A model generated the notes under the pieces. It did not search any database. It saw only the letters and a program-made list of their open reading frames with translations, and was not told the DNA's origin. From Ignavibacteriota bacterium (GTDB lineage Bacteria > Bacteroidota > Ignavibacteria > UBA10030 > UBA6906), in the NCBI GenBank assembly GCA_003162635.1, contig PMNE01000030.1, positions 144,889 to 189,555 on the forward strand: a stretch of DNA of 44,667 nucleotides, written 5' to 3'. Each line of letters starts with the position of its first letter. Within the stretch, counting starts at the first letter, position 1. The position numbers and the translations under genes are program-made. Below, piece by piece: positions 8,452 through 29,202 of this stretch.

Positions 8452-9497
8452 CAACGGAACAGATACGTGCTGTTGATCCCCGCGGAATGTATGACCTGAT
8501 CAGGAATTTTCCGACCCAGGTGCGTGAAGCAGTCGCCATCGGCACCTCCGCAACGATCTCGCTCCGGGCCAAAGGGATCGAACAGATCGTCTTGTGCGGT
8601 CTCGGTGGATCGGCGATCGCCGGGGATCTTCTCCGCAGCTACCTCGCGGACGAATTGAAGGTCCCCTTCCTCGTGAACCGGGCCTATGCACTCCCCCGGT
8701 TTGTCGGCCCGAAAACATTGGTGATCATCTCCAGCTATTCCGGCAACACCGAGGAAACGAACACTGCCCATCGCGAAGCCATCAAGAGGAAAGCGAAGAT
8801 TCTCTGCATCACGTCGGGGGGAACGACAGCGAGACTCGCGAAGGCGCGCCGATCTTCTCTCATCATCGTTCCGGGCGGCCTCCCGCCGCGCGCCGCGCTC
8901 GGATATTCTTTCTTCCCCCTCCTTCTTGCATTGACAAGAATGGGATTCATCAAGAGCAAGTTCCGGGACATCAAAGAGACCATCGCCCTTCTTGAGGTGA
9001 AATCCGCCCTGTACGCGCAACCCGACGGCATCGATAACCTCCCCCGCACGCTTGCCGAGCAGCTGCGCCACCGTCTTGGCGTTGTCTATTCCTCCACCGA
9101 AAGATTCGACAGCGTGAACACGCGCTGGAGGGGACAGATCGCGGAGAATGCCAAGTCGCTTGCGTTCGGACACGTGCTTCCCGAAATGAACCACAACGAG
9201 CTCGTGGGATGGAAGGTCCTGAAGGAACAAATGCAGGAGATGCAGGTGTTCTTCCTGCGTGACAAGCAAGACCATCGAAGAATCAGCATCCGGATGGATA
9301 TTACCAGGGGGATGATCGCCCAACACACATCTCACGTGACCGAAGTCTGGAGCGAAGGGTCGTCCCTCCTGGCCCGCATCTTCTCGTTACTCTACCTCGG
9401 CGACTGGATGAGCTTCTACCTTGCCGTGCTCCATGGGGAAGACCCCATGCCGGTTGCCGTCATCGACCATTTGAAGCAGGAATTGGCCAAGGTATGA
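8448..9497 (+). CDS. Bifunctional phosphoglucose/phosphomannose isomerase
   Basis: The 349-residue SIS-fold enzyme should interconvert fructose-6-phosphate with glucose-6-phosphate and mannose-6-phosphate. It has CGLGGSAIAGD near residue 50, the sugar-phosphate loop ISSYSGNTEET near 105, PPRAALGYSFFPLL and the C-terminal EMNHNELVGW, the pattern of the bifunctional PGI/PMI family rather than classical Pgi. It overlaps ptsI and the following micro-ORF by 4 nt each, linking PTS phosphotransfer with hexose-phosphate metabolism. Dual activity is known for the family and not shown for this protein. Confidence 0.88.
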   Translation: MTTEQIRAVDPRGMYDLIRNFPTQVREAVAIGTSATISLRAKGIEQIVLCGLGGSAIAGDLLRSYLADELKVPFLVNRAYALPRFVGPKTLVIISSYSGNTEETNTAHREAIKRKAKILCITSGGTTARLAKARRSSLIIVPGGLPPRAALGYSFFPLLLALTRMGFIKSKFRDIKETIALLEVKSALYAQPDGIDNLPRTLAEQLRHRLGVVYSSTERFDSVNTRWRGQIAENAKSLAFGHVLPEMNHNELVGWKVLKEQMQEMQVFFLRDKQDHRRISIRMDITRGMIAQHTSHVTEVWSEGSSLLARIFSLLYLGDWMSFYLAVLHGEDPMPVAVIDHLKQELAKV

Positions 9498-9589
9498 CCC
9501 GACAACAGAAAATTGCCGTCGTCGTCGCGCTCCTGACGCTGGGGCTCATAGTTTTTGTCACGGTATTCCGGAACGGCACGTCCTGGTAA
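9494..9589 (+). CDS. Putative 31-residue single-span membrane micro-protein
   Basis: An ATG overlapping the PGI/PMI stop as ATGA opens a 31-codon frame ending in TAA at 9589. The peptide has a short basic N-terminus (MTRQQK), one hydrophobic stretch IAVVVALLTLGLIVFVTVF long enough to cross a membrane, and a short tail RNGTSW. The coupling, the membrane-protein composition and the fact that it fills the gap before the next gene all favour a real gene, but I recognise no family. It could also be a coupling device carrying ribosomes toward the outer-membrane gene at 9643. Confidence 0.5.
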   Translation: MTRQQKIAVVVALLTLGLIVFVTVFRNGTSW

Positions 9590-9642: not shown

Positions 9643-12495
9643 ATGAGACGGTTTCTGCGGCTGCTACCCTTCTTCCTTCTCCCCTCATTTTTCGGCCCTG
9701 TACCTGCCGGAGCCCAATTTTTCTGGTTCGGGCACAACAAAGTGCAGTACACCGATTTTCAGTGGCGCGTCCTGACCACCGAGCATTTCGATATCTACTT
9801 CTACCCCGAAATGCAGGGGCTGGCCGAGCAGGGAGCCGCCCTGGCGGAGGAGAGCTACGCCGTTCTGCAGACCCGTTTCAATTACGCCCTCGGTGGCCGC
9901 GTCCCGCTCATCTTCTACAGCTCACACTTGCACTTCGAACAGACCAATACCACCAGTGGTTTCATTCCCGAGGGGGTGGGAGGGTTCTTCGAATATCTCA
10001 AGGGACGGGTAGTCATCCCGGCCGACGGATCCATTGCACACTTCCGCCACGTCATTCGCCATGAACTTGTTCACGTCTTCATGACTGCCAAGCTCATGCA
10101 CGTTCTCTCCGACCACCGCAAAACGGCCGACCGCATGCCTCCGCTCTGGTTCACGGAGGGTCTCGCCGAATACTGGTCCACGGCGTGGGATGACCAGGCA
10201 GAAATGGTGTTGCGCGACCTGGTGCTGAACGGCAACGCAACGGGACTGGACAACATGGAGAGAATCTCAGGGACGTTTCTCATGTACAAGGAAGGGCAGA
10301 TTGCCCTTCAATTCCTCTCCCGAACCTACGGCGAGGACAAGATTCTGCTTCTGATGGAGAACTTCTGGAAGGACCCCTCCTTCCAGGAAGTTTTCAGGAT
10401 CACGACCGGGAAGAGTTTCCAGGAGTTCGACGAAGAATGGTTGTACGCCCTGAAGAAACAGTACTTCCCCCTTCTGGCCCGCAACGATGAACCCGGAAGG
10501 GCGGCGCGGAACATCGTCGAGGAAGGATTCAATTCCAAGCCCGTCGTTTTCGAAACAGACTCGGAACGAACCGTCTACTTCATTGGCAATAGGACCGGCT
10601 ACACCGGCATTTATGCCAAGCGCCTCGACAGCACGGACCAGCAATCCCCTGCCGTCAATGTCATCGAGGGAGAACGAACCGACGAACTGGAAGCGTTTCA
10701 TCCTCTCCAGGGGCGTATCGACATCTCCCCGGCGGGTCGGCCGAATGGCCGACCGGTCCGGCTTGCGTTCGTCACGAAGAGCGGAGAGAATGACGCACTT
10801 CACATCGCCGACATACGATCGGGTGAGATCGTTGCGACATATAAATTCGCAACGCTCGTCAGCATCGGTTCGGTATCATGGTCCCCGACCGGGGATTCAC
10901 TTGCTTTCTCGGCGATCGATAAAGGGGGACGGAGCGATCTCTACATCTTTACTCCCGCTACGGAGGAACTGCGGCGACTGACCGACGATAGCTACGACGA
11001 CCGCGACCCTGCCTGGTCTCCCGACGGCAGAACGATCGCTTTTGCATCCGACCGAACCCCGTACGGAAAAGATGGGACATATAACCTCTTCCTCTACGAT
11101 CTCCCCTCCGGCCGTGTGGAATATCTCACGTACGGGAAAGAATCCACCGGTTCTCCTGCCTGGTCGAAAGACGGTTCACGGATCGCGTTCACATCGGACC
11201 TCGACGGCGTGCAGAACATTTGGGTGATCGACATGAGGCGCTCCCCTGTCCGGGGAGTCCGCAGCATGTCCCGCCTCACCCGTTTCACGACGTCGGCATT
11301 CGACCCTGCCTGGACGATCTCGGGGGGTCTCGTCTTCACCGCATTCGAAAAGCTCAGCTTCCGCATCAAGGAGATTCCCAACGTGATGGCGGTCATCGAC
11401 ACGTCCGGCGATGTCCGGATCATCGACCTTTTCGGGAAAGACAAGCCGTGGGAACCTTCGACACTTGCGGGATCGACGTCTGTGAAGACTCTCCCTTACC
11501 GGGGAGAGTACAGTCTCGACATTGCGGAAAGCGCGATTTCCACTGATCCGGTCTTCGGCACGTCGGGCGGGGCCATTGTAGCGCTCAGCGATCTTCTCGG
11601 CAATGACCAGTATTATTTCCTCCTTTACAACACCGCGGAGACGCAAGCCGATTTTCTCTCAAGCTTTAACGTTGCAATCTCGCGGGCATCGCTGGGACAA
11701 CGGACAAACTATGCTTATGGCATTTACCGTTTCAGCGGTCGGCGATATGACCTGACGGTGCAGGACGACTACTTTTACGAACGGGTGCACGGCGGGTATT
11801 TTTCGCTCAGCTTTCCCCTCAGCAAATTCCAACGGATCGAGACGGGGGCAAGTCTCAGCAGTTCGACGCGGGACCTCCAGGGAAGTCTGCCCGAACGGCG
11901 CGCGTTGCTCCTCTCCAACTCGATCTCCTTCACACACGACAATTCGCTGTGGGGTCCAACCGGTCCGCTCGACGGCACCGTGTTCAACCTGACTCTCGCA
12001 TACACGTCGGACATACAGTATTCCAACGTCAACTACTACAGCATCATCGCCGACTATCGGCATTATCTCCGACTTGCGACACGAAGCGCATTCGCCTCCC
12101 GGTTTTGGTTGTTCTACAATGACGGGCAGGAGTCGCGGCGATTCGTCATGGGGGGAAGCTGGGACCTTCGTGGGTGGCCACGCTGGTCGATCCGGGGCGA
12201 AAAGCTCTGGCTCACAAGTCAGGAGCTTCGCTTCCCCATGCTGGATGAACTGGGGATGCTCTTCCCCTTCGGCGGTCTTTCGTTTATGTCGTTCCGCGGT
12301 GCGCTCTTTGTCGATGCCGGCGGCGCATGGGATAACCAATACACGGAGACTCTCGGCAGCATTGGCGGCGGGATACGCTTCAATCTTGCCGGTGCCTTGG
12401 TCCTTCGTTTCGACGTCGGCAAGCGGATCGAGGATAATTTCCACCGGCTGCAGACCGGGATTTTCCAACAATTTTTCTTTGGGTGGGATTTCTGA
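9643..12495 (+). CDS. Exported zinc-peptidase-like / TolB-propeller / outer-membrane barrel protein
   Basis: The 950-residue protein begins with a signal peptide ending near VPAGAQ. Residues about 25-280 resemble a gluzincin peptidase: RHELVHVF with H140, E141 and H144, then WFTEGLAEYW with E172 as likely third zinc ligand. Residues about 400-530 carry TolB/PD40 propeller repeats (SWSPTGDSLAFS, AWSPDGRTIAFASD, AWSKDGSRIAFTSD). The remainder, about 640-950, is rich in alternating aromatic strands and ends with Phe like an outer-membrane barrel. The ATG at 9643 has an AAAGGAT SD and starts the signal peptide; the upstream in-frame ATG at 9589 adds a non-signal stretch. Substrate and activity are unknown. 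Confidence 0.85.
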   Translation: MRRFLRLLPFFLLPSFFGPVPAGAQFFWFGHNKVQYTDFQWRVLTTEHFDIYFYPEMQGLAEQGAALAEESYAVLQTRFNYALGGRVPLIFYSSHLHFEQTNTTSGFIPEGVGGFFEYLKGRVVIPADGSIAHFRHVIRHELVHVFMTAKLMHVLSDHRKTADRMPPLWFTEGLAEYWSTAWDDQAEMVLRDLVLNGNATGLDNMERISGTFLMYKEGQIALQFLSRTYGEDKILLLMENFWKDPSFQEVFRITTGKSFQEFDEEWLYALKKQYFPLLARNDEPGRAARNIVEEGFNSKPVVFETDSERTVYFIGNRTGYTGIYAKRLDSTDQQSPAVNVIEGERTDELEAFHPLQGRIDISPAGRPNGRPVRLAFVTKSGENDALHIADIRSGEIVATYKFATLVSIGSVSWSPTGDSLAFSAIDKGGRSDLYIFTPATEELRRLTDDSYDDRDPAWSPDGRTIAFASDRTPYGKDGTYNLFLYDLPSGRVEYLTYGKESTGSPAWSKDGSRIAFTSDLDGVQNIWVIDMRRSPVRGVRSMSRLTRFTTSAFDPAWTISGGLVFTAFEKLSFRIKEIPNVMAVIDTSGDVRIIDLFGKDKPWEPSTLAGSTSVKTLPYRGEYSLDIAESAISTDPVFGTSGGAIVALSDLLGNDQYYFLLYNTAETQADFLSSFNVAISRASLGQRTNYAYGIYRFSGRRYDLTVQDDYFYERVHGGYFSLSFPLSKFQRIETGASLSSSTRDLQGSLPERRALLLSNSISFTHDNSLWGPTGPLDGTVFNLTLAYTSDIQYSNVNYYSIIADYRHYLRLATRSAFASRFWLFYNDGQESRRFVMGGSWDLRGWPRWSIRGEKLWLTSQELRFPMLDELGMLFPFGGLSFMSFRGALFVDAGGAWDNQYTETLGSIGGGIRFNLAGALVLRFDVGKRIEDNFHRLQTGIFQQFFFGWDF

Positions 12496-13640
12496 TGCGC
12501 CATTGGCAGTTCATCGCCGCCGCGCTGCTGCTTCTCTCCGGCTGTGGCGGTCTCCGGCTTGACCGCGCGCCCGTCCCGCGCCCCGACGATTGGCCGACGC
12601 TCGCACGGAACGCGGAGAGAGAAGCATCCGTCCCGGCTCCCCTGCCGCCGCCGCTGCGCAGGATATGGGCGGAAGATGTCTCTGCGGGAATCGGGAGCGG
12701 GTCTCCCGTGGTCGTCGGGGGAATCCTCTTCGTGGGGACGCAGAGGGGTGAACTGTGCGCATTCGATCCCCGCACGGGCGACCGTATCGGCGGAAGCCGC
12801 TTCGGCGAATCCATCGAGGGGAGTCCGGTCATCGATTCGAACCTGGCGTTGATCCCCCTTTCGAATGCGCGGGAGTCACTGGTCGCCTTCAACCTGGTGA
12901 AGGGAATAGCGCAATGGAAAATGAAGTGCGGAGATATTGAAGTCTCACCCCTTCTTTTCGGCGGCAGACTGTATTTTGGCAACACACAAGGAACATTCTT
13001 CTGCATTGAACCACGGTCAGGTAAACAGCTCTGGTCATTCGCATTCCCATCGAATGAGAAGCGTTGGGGAATTCATTCCTCTGCGGCGACGGATGGCACT
13101 ATCATCGTTTTCGGCGCCGACAATGGAACTGTCTACGCACTACACCCGGTCGACGGCCATCTTTTGTGGAAACACGAGACAGGTGCCCCCATCTCCTCCC
13201 CATTGCTCGCTTCTCACGGCACGGTGTTCGTCTGCAACAGGAACGGTTCGGCGATCGCACTCGACGCCGCTACCGGAACCGTGGCGTGGCAGTGTACCCT
13301 CGATGCACCCGTGTTCGCCCATGCCGTCGTCCTCGACAGCATTCTTGTCGTCGGGACGGCAGCCGGGACTCTGAGCGGACTTGACCGCCGGACAGGCCAC
13401 TGCATGTGGCGGAGCGCACTTGACGGCCCCATTGCAGCGGGCGGTGCTGTGACCGGTGACATCCTGTATATCGGAACGCTCGCGAAGCATCTCTATGCCG
13501 TTCGGGTGGGAGATGGCCGGATCCTCTGGAGGGAAGAAGTCGGGGGACGCGTCCGAACACCCCCCATCATCGCGGGGGGCCGCCTCATTGTTGCAACGGA
13601 CGACCGGTCGGTGACAGCATTCGGCCCGGGCGAGCCATGA
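12495..13640 (+). CDS. BamB-like PQQ beta-propeller lipoprotein
   Basis: The 381-residue protein starts with a lipoprotein signal: hydrophobic residues up to LSGC, with C17 as the lipidation site. The rest is a string of PQQ-type propeller blades, each with a GGILFVGTQRGELCAFD-like core and a Trp-ending strand (GTVYALHPVDGHLLW, GTVAWQC). BamB has this architecture and helps insert outer-membrane barrels, so a scaffold role at the outer membrane is reasonable, but identity with BamB is not proven. The ATG at 12495 shares its A with the preceding TGA stop and follows a GGTGGG SD. The next gene overlaps by 4 nt. Confidence 0.85.
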   Translation: MRHWQFIAAALLLLSGCGGLRLDRAPVPRPDDWPTLARNAEREASVPAPLPPPLRRIWAEDVSAGIGSGSPVVVGGILFVGTQRGELCAFDPRTGDRIGGSRFGESIEGSPVIDSNLALIPLSNARESLVAFNLVKGIAQWKMKCGDIEVSPLLFGGRLYFGNTQGTFFCIEPRSGKQLWSFAFPSNEKRWGIHSSAATDGTIIVFGADNGTVYALHPVDGHLLWKHETGAPISSPLLASHGTVFVCNRNGSAIALDAATGTVAWQCTLDAPVFAHAVVLDSILVVGTAAGTLSGLDRRTGHCMWRSALDGPIAAGGAVTGDILYIGTLAKHLYAVRVGDGRILWREEVGGRVRTPPIIAGGRLIVATDDRSVTAFGPGEP

Positions 13641-14422
13641 CAACGAGACGCATTGTCGGTCTGATCGCCCTCTTTGTGGCTGCGGCCACCGCGCCTACGG
13701 TGACGACCGGAAGCACTGGAGGCACACGGTATGCTTCTGTCATGATCACCACGGGGGCGGACTCTGCCTGGCTCGTTCTTGACTCCGTCCGCGTGGGAAC
13801 AACTCCCTTTGCATCCGATTCTGTTGCGCCGGGGAGGCATATTGTGCGGCTCGTGCCGTTCGACATCCTCTCATGGCTGACGACACCGGTCGTTGACACG
13901 GTGGATATTGCCCCTGGTGAACACCGCCAGCTTCGCTACACCATGCCGGGAGGGATCGCGTTGCTCACCGAACCATCGGGGGCGAATGTCATGGTCCGTG
14001 ATTCGCTGATCGGTCAAACCCCTCTCCTTCTTTCCTCCTCCGGTTCGCCCACTCCGGATAGTCTGAACATCTCAAAGGAAGGATACAGCAGCATGTCCCT
14101 CCCGTTCCCTTCCGGGGGAGGCCTCGTTTGCCGAATCGCACTGAAGAGGGCTGGAACCAATTGCGAAAACCCGATGATCAAAGATGAAAACATCAACAGG
14201 AGTCCGGCGCGGCTTCTCTTCTGGGGAGGGGTGACGATTGCCGCAGGTTTTGCCGCTGCTTATTTGAAGATTCGGGCAGATGGGAAATCAACCGCATACC
14301 AGACAACGGGAGATCCCGACGCGCTTGCCGCCATGAGGCGACTCGACCGGGGAGCCGGCGTGTCGTTTGCACTGACGGAGATTTGTTTCGCGTTTCTGAC
14401 CTATTTCCTCCTTATCGACTGA
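13637..14422 (+). CDS. PEGA-domain membrane protein
   Basis: The 261-residue protein has an N-terminal signal or anchor, then two PEGA-like beta-sandwich modules: about residues 33-72 (DSAWLVLDSVRVGTTPF) and 104-135 (LTEPSGANVMVRDSLIGQTP). PEGA modules are surface or periplasmic binding modules. The C-terminal part has two hydrophobic segments, LLFWGGVTIAAGFAAAYL and FALTEICFAFLTYFLL, near the end. The start overlaps the BamB-like stop as ATGA and it is the last gene of the operon. It may anchor the upstream envelope proteins, which is inference from position. Confidence 0.75.
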   Translation: MTTRRIVGLIALFVAAATAPTVTTGSTGGTRYASVMITTGADSAWLVLDSVRVGTTPFASDSVAPGRHIVRLVPFDILSWLTTPVVDTVDIAPGEHRQLRYTMPGGIALLTEPSGANVMVRDSLIGQTPLLLSSSGSPTPDSLNISKEGYSSMSLPFPSGGGLVCRIALKRAGTNCENPMIKDENINRSPARLLFWGGVTIAAGFAAAYLKIRADGKSTAYQTTGDPDALAAMRRLDRGAGVSFALTEICFAFLTYFLLID

Positions 14423-16952: not shown

Positions 16953-19256
16953 ATGACGGTGGATATGATGCTGCGAGGGAGGCGTTTCTGGGCATTCCTC
17001 CTCCTGGCAGCCGGCACGGCGACAGCCGTCGCTGGGACCTGGAGGAATTACACGTCGATGAAGGACGTGAAGGGGATTGCGAGGGACGGACATACGTACT
17101 GGGCCGCAACCAGCGGTGGACTGTTCCGGTGGGACGAAGGAACGACCCGGTACCAAAGCCTGACGAACGCGGAAGGTCTCCGCAGCATCGACCTCACGGC
17201 CGTCGATATTGACCACAATGGTACTGTATGGACCGGCGCATCGACCGGTGTCCTCCACGCGTACTCTCCCTCCGAAGGCATCCTCCGTTCCATCCTCGAT
17301 ATCGCCAATTTCCAGGGGAAGACCGACAAGAACATCAACGCCATTGCAGCGATCGGCGATACTCTTGTTGTCAGTACAGACTTCGGTCTGAGTATGTACA
17401 ACCTCGCTCGCGGCGAATTCGGCGACACATTCACACGATTCGGCACCCTGGCGACAAATGTGAACGTCATTTGTCGTTCCGCGACAATCTCGACAGGCAG
17501 AATTTGGGTAGCCATCTCGGACGGTGCTTCCATCTCGCGGATCGCATCTGCAAGTCTCGCGAACCAAAATCTTCTTGCCCCCGATGCATGGACGCTGGAA
17601 GCTGTCGGCGGAACGACTGCCGTCCCGCTGGCTTTGGCAAGTTTCTCCGGGCGGGTGTATGCCGGAACGACGGCAGGGCTCTTCTCGTTTGACGGCGCCA
17701 CGTGGCAGCCGCTCCCCGCACTTGCAGGGAAATCCATTATTGCGCTAAAAGCCGGGTCGTCCACCCTCGTGCTCTGCACATCGGCCCGCGAAGTGTGGAC
17801 TGTCGACCAGGCAAACAACGCTCAGCAGCAAGGAACCGCCCTTCCTTTTGCGCCAACATCCATCACGACAGATTATAGCGGGAACGGAGTCGTCGGCGTC
17901 CTCGCAGGAGGGATCGTCACTCTGGAAGGACAGACGTGGACATCCCACTTTCCCAACGGACCGAATTCTTACCAATTTGTCAACGTCACCGTCGCACCCG
18001 ACGGGACCGTTTGGGGTGCTTCAGGAAAGGACGCGGGAAAAGGGATGTACCGCTTCAACGGGAAGGATTGGAAGTCGTTCACAACGCAAAACAGCCCCCT
18101 GCCGAACGATGAGGTCTACCGGGTCTCCGTTGGGTGCAGCGGCTCCATTTGGGGAAGCACGTACGGAGGCGGGTTCGTCGAGATTCTGCCGGGAACCGAC
18201 ACGATCGACGCTTCGCACGTCTATGGAACCAACGTCGGGATGGTCGGCGTGTCAAACAACATCAGTTATATCGCCGCAAGTTCAGTCGCGTGCGACGCCG
18301 CAGGGAATGTCGTGATGACGTGCATTTCTCCGGCAGACCGCCGCACACTTACCATCCGCGAGTCCAATGGAACCTGGCGAAGAATGCCGGTCATGACATC
18401 TTTCGGAGGGACCCCGGTCACCAGTCTCGCGGACGGGCCTGTCGATCGATGCTTTGCTGTCGACGCATCCGACAACCTTTGGGCGATCATCCGCGATCCT
18501 GCCTATAAGGGTGTCGTGTCCTTGCATAAGGGCGCGAACGGCGAGTTTGACAGTGTCGCAACGTCGTTCGTTACATCTGCCAACGGACTCCCGAGCAACA
18601 ATATCAACACCATTGTTGTGGACAGGGAAAACGACATCTGGGTCGGGACCGACCTCGGCATCGCCATCATCTCCGATCCTGACAACCCCACCCAATCGGG
18701 GGGGATCGCGGCGTACACCCCGCTGGATGGTTTGGTGATCAATTCGATTGCTGTTGATGCGCTCAATCAAAAGTGGGTGGGAACGAGTGAGGGAGTGATC
18801 CTCCTCTCCCCCGACGGGGTGCAGGAACTTGCGTCGTACACCGTGGAGAGCACAGACGGAAAGCTCATGGATAACAACGTCCTGAGCGTCGCAGTGGACG
18901 GAAGGACCGGAAACGTGTACTTCGGCACCGCATCGGGGCTTGCGAGTTTGACCACTTCGGCAGTCGAACCGAAGGAGGCATTCGGTACACTGACGTCCTA
19001 TCCCAGCCCGTATCGCGTGCCGAACACCATCCCCCTCACGATCGACGGACTCGTTGCCAATTCCAGCATCAAAATTCTCACGAGCAGCGGGTCGCTGGTG
19101 CGCGAAGTCAAGTCGCCCGGCGGCAGGGTGGGTTATTGGGACGGTCGCGACACACGCGGAAGTGTTGTCGCTTCAGGGATTTATATCGTTGTCGGGTTCA
19201 CCGATGACGGGAGCCAGACGGGAACGGGGAAGATTGCCGTCATACGAACGCAGTGA
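16953..19256 (+). CDS. PorZ-like two-propeller protein with C-terminal sorting-type domain
   Basis: The 767-residue exported protein starts with a signal peptide (RRFWAFLLLAAGTATAVAG). The rest consists of repeats of a two-component-propeller type: GIARDGHTYWAATSGGLFRW, DGTVWGASGKDAGKGMYRF, DIWVGTDLGIAIIS, QKWVGTSEGVILLSPDG. The opening WRNYTSMKDVKGIA and the STDFGLSMYNL segment resemble PorZ, the type IX secretion component on the cell surface. The last 90 residues (SYPSPYRVPNTIPLTIDG ... GIYIVVGFTDDG) form a FlgD/Ig-like domain like type IX sorting domains. The start may be 16953, 16965 or 16968. No other secretion-system gene is in the window, so it may instead be a cargo protein. Confidence 0.75.
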   Translation: MTVDMMLRGRRFWAFLLLAAGTATAVAGTWRNYTSMKDVKGIARDGHTYWAATSGGLFRWDEGTTRYQSLTNAEGLRSIDLTAVDIDHNGTVWTGASTGVLHAYSPSEGILRSILDIANFQGKTDKNINAIAAIGDTLVVSTDFGLSMYNLARGEFGDTFTRFGTLATNVNVICRSATISTGRIWVAISDGASISRIASASLANQNLLAPDAWTLEAVGGTTAVPLALASFSGRVYAGTTAGLFSFDGATWQPLPALAGKSIIALKAGSSTLVLCTSAREVWTVDQANNAQQQGTALPFAPTSITTDYSGNGVVGVLAGGIVTLEGQTWTSHFPNGPNSYQFVNVTVAPDGTVWGASGKDAGKGMYRFNGKDWKSFTTQNSPLPNDEVYRVSVGCSGSIWGSTYGGGFVEILPGTDTIDASHVYGTNVGMVGVSNNISYIAASSVACDAAGNVVMTCISPADRRTLTIRESNGTWRRMPVMTSFGGTPVTSLADGPVDRCFAVDASDNLWAIIRDPAYKGVVSLHKGANGEFDSVATSFVTSANGLPSNNINTIVVDRENDIWVGTDLGIAIISDPDNPTQSGGIAAYTPLDGLVINSIAVDALNQKWVGTSEGVILLSPDGVQELASYTVESTDGKLMDNNVLSVAVDGRTGNVYFGTASGLASLTTSAVEPKEAFGTLTSYPSPYRVPNTIPLTIDGLVANSSIKILTSSGSLVREVKSPGGRVGYWDGRDTRGSVVASGIYIVVGFTDDGSQTGTGKIAVIRTQ

Positions 19257-27460: not shown

Positions 27461-27874
27461 ATGCCCATCCTTGAGGACGATACCGCGATTGCAGAGCGCC
27501 TTCGCAATGCCACGACCATCGCCGTTGTTGGACTCTCGGCCAGGCCGGAGCGCGACAGCCATCGCGTCGCACTCTACCTCCAGCGCCACCGCTACCGGAT
27601 CTACCCCGTCAACCCGTCTGTCGCCTCCGTTCTCGGAGAACCTTCCTACCCCGATCTTCTCTCCATCGGCGCGCAGGTCGATATTGTCGATATCTTCCGC
27701 CGGCCGGAATTCGTCCCGGCCATCGTCGAGGAGGCCATCCGCGCAGGCGCCCGATGCGTATGGATGCAATTCGACACCGCCCATGAAGAGGCCGCCGCCG
27801 TTGCTGCTGCTGCGGGACTGGATGTCATCGTCGACCGCTGCATCATGGTCGAACATCGCCGCCTCATCGGATGA
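27461..27874 (+). CDS. CoA-binding domain protein (YccU type)
   Basis: The 137-residue protein is a single Rossmann-like CoA-binding domain: IAVVGLSARPERDSHRVA, the YRIYPVNP strand, VDIVDIFRRPEFVP and GARCVWMQFD. Such small proteins resemble the N-terminal domain of CoA ligases but have no known activity. It starts 6 bp after rnc and overlaps the next gene as ATGA. Confidence 0.85.
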   Translation: MPILEDDTAIAERLRNATTIAVVGLSARPERDSHRVALYLQRHRYRIYPVNPSVASVLGEPSYPDLLSIGAQVDIVDIFRRPEFVPAIVEEAIRAGARCVWMQFDTAHEEAAAVAAAAGLDVIVDRCIMVEHRRLIG

Positions 27875-29202
27875 GAATCTTCCCGCCCGGCGCGGCAATC
27901 GCCGCACTCATGACACTTCTCACCGCGCCGCTCGCAGCCCAGGATACGACAATGCAACACCATCGCGTGGTCCTCGGTCTCGTCGATACCGTCATCGTCT
28001 CCGGCAATGAAAAGACGAAGAGTTATGTGATCCTCGACGAGATGGCTCTTCGGCCGGGATCGCTCGCCACGCAGGAGGCCATCGAGTATGATCGGGCGCG
28101 CATCTACAGTCTCCATCTCTTCACCAGCGTGGACATCTACTACGACTCCCTCGACACACAGCATTTCCTCTTCGTCAGCGTCCGCGAGCGCTGGTACATC
28201 ATCCCTATCCCCATTGTCGGCTTCCGCGACGGCGACACGAAGAAGCCCTATTATGGCGCGGGGGTCACACACACGAACTTCCTTGGGAGGAACCAGCGCC
28301 TCTCCGGCGCTTTGGTCTTCGGATTCGACCCGGAGGTCTCGTTCGCGTACGAGGACCCGCTCTTCGACCGTGACCACAGCGCCTATGCCGGTGTCTCTGC
28401 CGGCCTCGCCACCGTGAGAAACCGGAGTCTCGTGGAATCGGCCTTGACCGGCGACTTCGATGAACACCATAGGGATATCGATGTCAATGCCGGGAGACGA
28501 TTCACTCTGTTTGAAACCGCGGGAATCAACGGCGGCCTCCATTCCGTCACGGTTTCCTCTTATCGCGCGGGGAGGACTGCTTCGCCGAGCGGAACGGACG
28601 TTTTCCTCTATGCGACGATCAGCTACAGCTATGACTCCCGGGACCTCCGCGAATATGCGATGCAGGGCGCGCTCGTGACGCTGTTTGCAACGAAGAACGG
28701 CTTTGGCGAATCGCACGTCGACTTCTCCCGCTTCGGTGTAGACTTCAGGAAATTCATCCCTCTCCTCTCCGAGGTGTCGGTCGGCGTACGTGCCTTTACG
28801 ACCCAGGTGTCGGGAACGATCATCCCAACGTATGCCCGCTCGTATTTTGGATTACAGGAACGGGTCCGTGGGTACTATGAGGCGCTCTGGGAAGGAGAAA
28901 ACCTTGCGGGGGGTACAATCGAATTCCGCTATCTGTTCCTTTCGCCCCTGACGTTCCAGGTTACCAGTCTCCCCCTCCCCCAGGAATTCGCAGTCTGGCG
29001 GTTCGGAGCCGCTCTGGCCCTTTTCAGCGATGCGGGAGCGGCATGGTACCGACATGATAAACTCTCGCTTCCGCTCTTCGGCCTTGGATACGGCGGCGGG
29101 CTCGACTTCCTCCTCCCCTACAGCTTCATCCTCCGAACCGAGTATGCATGGAACGATCACGGCAAGGGGGAGTTCATCATCGACCTGCGAGCATCCATAT
29201 AG
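27871..29202 (+). CDS. Omp85/BamA-like outer-membrane protein with one POTRA domain
   Basis: The 443-residue protein has a signal peptide (AALMTLLTAPLAAQD), one POTRA-like region (about 40-110: VDTVIVSGNEKTKSYVILDEM ... LFTSVDIYY, shown in part), and then a barrel of alternating strands with the Omp85-like turns GAGVTHTNFLGRNQRLSG and FYSYDSRD-type segments (ISYSYDSRDLREY). With only one POTRA it is shorter than BamA and resembles the TamA/surface-antigen group of small Omp85 proteins. It could insert or export proteins at the outer membrane. The start overlaps the CoA-binding gene stop as ATGA. Confidence 0.82.
   Translation: MRIFPPGAAIAALMTLLTAPLAAQDTTMQHHRVVLGLVDTVIVSGNEKTKSYVILDEMALRPGSLATQEAIEYDRARIYSLHLFTSVDIYYDSLDTQHFLFVSVRERWYIIPIPIVGFRDGDTKKPYYGAGVTHTNFLGRNQRLSGALVFGFDPEVSFAYEDPLFDRDHSAYAGVSAGLATVRNRSLVESALTGDFDEHHRDIDVNAGRRFTLFETAGINGGLHSVTVSSYRAGRTASPSGTDVFLYATISYSYDSRDLREYAMQGALVTLFATKNGFGESHVDFSRFGVDFRKFIPLLSEVSVGVRAFTTQVSGTIIPTYARSYFGLQERVRGYYEALWEGENLAGGTIEFRYLFLSPLTFQVTSLPLPQEFAVWRFGAALALFSDAGAAWYRHDKLSLPLFGLGYGGGLDFLLPYSFILRTEYAWNDHGKGEFIIDLRASI

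Follow-up and report, generated by a model that had tools for sequence, protein, structure and literature searches.

What might a single protein that joins a zinc peptidase, a TolB-like propeller and an outer-membrane barrel do at the bacterial cell envelope? This question is raised by a gene at 9643-12495 (+) of the window, the 44,667-nucleotide stretch of DNA from an Ignavibacteriota bacterium that was analysed here. The initial annotation had read the three parts from a HELVH motif with a downstream glutamate at residue 172, propeller repeats and a barrel-like end. The frame is open and its product has 950 residues, the last of which is F950, and the order signal peptide, gluzincin-type peptidase, TolB-like propeller and Omp85 barrel (Table 1) is supported by profile matches, conservation and a confident structure model. 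The start at 9643, as read in the initial annotation, is preceded by an AAAGGA-like ribosome site and gives a clean signal peptide (MRRFLRLLPFF...PAGA/Q); mechanical ORF calling placed the start 18 codons upstream, at 9589. Q25, just after the cleavage site, is found in 100% of 105 aligned sequences. Separately, a 31-residue hydrophobic micro-ORF (MTRQQKIAVVVALLTLGLIVFVTVFRNGTSW) at window positions 9494-9589 (+) overlaps the stop codon of the isomerase gene that comes before it; in L038, L039, L040, L042, L044, L046 and L047, all close relatives, peptides resembling it lie upstream of the same gene.

Table 1. Features of the peptidase-barrel gene and of the two genes that follow it, in window coordinates.
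Feature	Residues	Coordinates	Strand	Basis
Signal peptide (AGA/Q)	1-24	9643..9714	+	sequence
Gluzincin-type peptidase domain (Peptidase_MA_2-like)	25-285	9715..10497	+	PF13485, conservation
HELVH zinc motif	140-144	10060..10074	+	invariance in homologues and paralogues
E172, predicted third zinc ligand, within WFTEGLAEYW	172	10156..10158	+	invariance
Y215, candidate transition-state residue (putative role)	215	10285..10287	+	invariance
TolB-like beta-propeller	286-587	10498..11403	+	PD40; TolB fold match
16-strand Omp85 barrel	623-950	11509..12492	+	PF01103, model, BamA fold match
LRGW, Omp85 loop-6 (V/I)RG(F/Y)-like motif, between strands 11 and 12	842-845	12166..12177	+	model, conservation
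FVDAG, Omp85 FxD motif, strand 13	889-893	12307..12321	+	model, conservation
BamB-like PQQ-propeller lipoprotein, lipobox LLSGC		12495..13640	+	PQQ_2 8.7e-60
PEGA-domain exported protein, hydrophobic C-terminus		13637..14422	+	PEGA 2.2e-9

The peptidase domain is the best conserved part of the protein, mean column identities across 105 sequences being 0.70 (peptidase), 0.67 (barrel) and 0.55 (propeller). H140, E141, H144, E172 and Y215 show no substitution in any of the 105 aligned sequences or in 30/30 paralogues of a second clade (clade B), and the pattern HExxH...W..E[GA] is kept in all 145 distinct full-length family members, with E172 lying 27 residues past HExxH (26-29 family-wide). Because H140, E141, H144 and E172 never differ among the 105 sequences, a chance HExxH can be rejected, as can a pseudo-enzyme arising through drift. 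In gluzincins, the HExxH helix is followed by a helix that supplies the glutamate ligand; in our model HELVH sits within a long helix spanning residues 131-157, and E172 within the helix after it, at 168-179. Pfam run on the whole 950-residue protein returns Peptidase_MA_2 (PF13485) at E 1.3e-4, and across the scans the window protein scores 22-25 bits, against a cut-off of 32.4. The same profile matches 20/20 family N-termini scanned as separate domains (best E 5.3e-15), and a homologous paralogue in the same genome scores 52-55 bits, above the 32.4 cut-off. A profile search for a solved relative of the peptidase domain found none, the collagenase matches being weak (E 0.07 and worse), and the fold-search matches of the full model are filled by the propeller and barrel, leaving the peptidase fold barely covered. 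As judged from its sequence, the domain is probably catalytic.

A full-structure prediction, which the initial annotation had proposed, was run with AlphaFold2 and the family alignment, giving a mean pLDDT of 82 and a pTM of 0.80; prediction from the single sequence reached a pLDDT of only 34. The propeller is recognised by PD40 (E 3.9e-21, on the 950-residue protein), and TolB aligns to the model over 242 residues with a Z of 26.7 and an rmsd of 2.2. It is TolB-like in fold, and we reject a TolB orthologue, since the protein scores 110.5 bits against the TolB equivalog TIGR02800, far below its cut-off of 343. The barrel-like end proves to be a real barrel: PF01103 matches at E 3.4e-12 and 47 bits, above its cut-off of 24, the model has 16 strands across residues 623-948, and BamA aligns over 305 residues with a Z of up to 23.5. 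R843 of the LRGW motif and D891 of the FVDAG motif are each present in 99% of clade A, the clade of the window protein, and in 30/30 clade B sequences, and the two motifs lie at what we take to be the places of the BamA loop-6 and strand-13 motifs.

The model also bears on how the barrel might be used. About 35 residues separate the end of the propeller (587) from the first barrel strand (623) and a POTRA domain is absent; because there is no room for one between propeller and barrel, we do not presume that the protein works as BAM does. The alignments of several BamA structures to the model begin at residue 92-119, a weak hint that this segment of the peptidase may lie near the position of BamA's last POTRA, that is, on the periplasmic side. 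Residues 98-120 contain many invariant positions, with low model confidence at 100-107, and we speculate that they could form an element comparable to the lid of PlpD that contacts the barrel lumen.

A search for homologues with the same domain order, which the initial annotation had also suggested, returned the 145 full-length members, and a family member is present in 173 of the 296 genomes sampled from the phylum. Orthologues occur across Ignavibacteriota, Rhodothermota, KSB1 and Calditrichota, and in the tree clade A comprises records labelled Ignavibacteriota, Bacteroidota, Rhodothermota, KSB1 and Calditrichota. The window's genome itself holds three tripartite members. The second (C11, 1057 residues) has the same three domains and falls outside clade A, and the third, more divergent copy (L122 / L008, G000:C17) carries HEFTH; its frame is interrupted by undetermined assembly bases and is therefore no evidence for a split gene. 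Since the three-domain architecture is found both in clade A and in the rest of the family, it was, judging from these sequences, in place before clades A and B diverged, and we reject a recent, singular fusion. PHROGs gave no match, and plasmid records gave partial relatives only.

The BamB-like and PEGA genes, which the initial annotation had taken to suggest an envelope module, are linked to the peptidase-barrel gene across phyla. In the window the three are tightly packed, the start of the BamB-like gene overlapping the stop of the peptidase-barrel gene (TGATG) and the start of the PEGA gene overlapping the end of the BamB-like gene (ATGA). A BamB-like gene comes directly next in 60 of the 71 clade A loci with enough sequence, and a PEGA gene is then present in 47 of those 60. 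This linkage is retained in KSB1, Calditrichota and Rhodothermales despite the loss of most other neighbours, and at KSB1 and Calditrichota loci the pair is the sole survivor of the window's neighbour set. At about 11 of the 71 orthologous loci no BamB-like neighbour was detected, so the protein may be able to do without this partner. One Ignavibacteriota subclade (L075-L081, L085 and L086) keeps the tripartite gene without BamB-like or PEGA neighbours. A profile of the PQQ protein found no match beside any of 30 clade B loci; at the remaining loci it found two, in the L114 and L091 genomes, both adjacent to family genes that are most likely the clade A copies there. The window's genome encodes no PQQ_2 protein other than the BamB-like neighbour. 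The best named match of this neighbour is TIGR03300 (BamB) at E 1.2e-50 and 172 bits, below the equivalog cut-off of 285, and on this sequence evidence we call it BamB-like and do not class it as BamB. A lipobox is recognisable in at least 46 of 62 BamB-like proteins, many of the others being stop-to-stop frames whose true start is unset.

We favour, tentatively and at somewhat less than an even chance, the reading of this protein as a metallopeptidase that is anchored in the outer membrane, faces the periplasm, has a BamB-like partner of its own and serves to process exported or outer-membrane proteins or to control their quality. The Omp85 barrel would hold the N-terminal peptidase and the TolB-like propeller at the periplasmic side of the outer membrane, where the zinc peptidase would cleave or remove proteins and the propeller could offer a docking surface. 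The co-encoded BamB-like lipoprotein, and the PEGA protein, may be partner subunits of a complex, and the likely substrates would be outer-membrane or exported proteins, in a role comparable to that of Escherichia coli BepA at BAM. A broader proposal, which we consider possible and rather doubtful, is that FCB-group bacteria devote a proteolytic complex in the outer membrane, distinct from BAM, to inspecting or processing outer-membrane clients in situ; its metallopeptidase would be part of an Omp85 protein that has a BamB-like subunit of its own.

The barrel itself invites a different explanation, in which the protein is a second, POTRA-less BAM-like insertase whose propeller and BamB-like lipoprotein hand certain outer-membrane proteins over to the barrel, the peptidase being mainly structural or substrate-binding. 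The loop-6 and FxD motifs and the BamB-like gene alongside fit such a protein, and Heinz & Lithgow (PMC4104836) liken WD40-Omp85 proteins to a BamA-BamB fusion. We nevertheless consider it unlikely, since a purely structural domain would not need catalytic residues that never vary, POTRA domains are absent, and the genome already has what appears to be an ordinary BamA-like protein. The latter (C81, 798 residues) is a separate multi-POTRA protein, so the window protein is an additional Omp85 protein. A second POTRA Omp85 (C62) is also encoded in the genome, and these assignments, like that of a PlpD-like patatin-POTRA-Omp85 protein on the same contig as the window (L126, G000:C98:101833-102756), are probable ones made from sequence features. 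One M48 peptidase is present in the genome. The window contains a further Omp85 protein of 443 residues at 27871-29202 (+), with apparently a single POTRA-like domain.

The peptidase could instead be a specific maturation protease that trims a single exported protein or lipoprotein, or a handful of them (components of the type IX secretion route, for instance), and has no part in general quality control. Three tripartite members in one genome suggest separate substrates, and a PorZ equivalog (T9SS_PorZ 313 bits, cut-off 260), hence a component of type IX secretion, is encoded a few genes downstream, at 16953-19256 (+). However, the conserved neighbours are the BamB-like and PEGA genes and include no T9SS component, and a PorZ-type gene lies nearby in closer relatives only and was not seen at the KSB1 and Calditrichota loci, which leads us to give this reading little credence. 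Less probable still is a self-exporting surface protease, whose barrel would bring the two N-terminal domains out onto the surface of the cell to degrade external protein: its domain order resembles the passenger-barrel order formerly assumed for PlpD, but the PlpD enzyme stays periplasmic (PMC11116518), peptidase residues 92-119 are placed by the model, on weak evidence, close to the barrel's POTRA side, and strict conservation with housekeeping-type synteny is unlike a secreted degradative enzyme.

Comparison with known systems sets the proposed outer-membrane-anchored peptidase in context. The initial annotation had regarded the domain order as unmatched among characterised proteins. Our literature search likewise found no characterised member of the peptidase-propeller-Omp85 family, but the order is not singular, as it belongs to a widespread family with paralogues, and the propeller-Omp85 combination was named in 2014 (PMC4104836). 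Heinz & Lithgow define WD40-Omp85 as one of ten Omp85 subfamilies, in a scheme that admits POTRA-less subfamilies, so that POTRA domains are usual and not universal. As described there, WD40-Omp85 proteins share an N-terminal TolB-like propeller, a C-terminal Omp85 barrel and the lack of a POTRA with the window protein; their text gives the WD40 domain only, whereas the window protein adds a strictly conserved gluzincin-type peptidase ahead of it, and the 'Metallo' subfamily carries a different domain, PF00149 (PMC4104836). The combination of propeller and Omp85 barrel was thus already known, and this analysis adds to it a peptidase domain, the invariance of that domain and a conserved neighbourhood of BamB-like and PEGA genes. 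A 2024 paper on PlpD describes the WD40-like and metalloprotease Omp85 subfamilies as not well characterised (PMC11116518), and neither a propeller nor TolB nor a peptidase is mentioned in a paper on the BAM complex of Flavobacterium. For the policing of outer-membrane assembly in Bacteroidota-like bacteria, the conserved peptidase-Omp85 protein with its BamB-like partner is a concrete and testable candidate.

PlpD is the closest experimental precedent for the proposed topology. Both proteins carry an N-terminal enzyme domain on an Omp85 barrel, and in PlpD the patatin domain remains periplasmic, the side proposed here, with its lid touching the barrel lumen (PMC11116518); PlpD differs in being a patatin-like lipase with a POTRA and no propeller. 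BepA is likewise a zinc metallopeptidase at the outer membrane, and lends its role by analogy and not by membership, as it is a periplasmic M48 enzyme without barrel or propeller (PMC8423444). TolB of the Tol-Pal system has the propeller fold in common with the window protein, in which the peptidase replaces the TolB N-terminal domain and the whole is membrane-anchored. With BamA and BamB it shares the barrel fold and motifs and an adjoining BamB-like gene; unlike BamA, it has no POTRA domains and carries a peptidase and a propeller. With it, the Omp85 superfamily would gain a further enzymatic class next to the patatin proteins.
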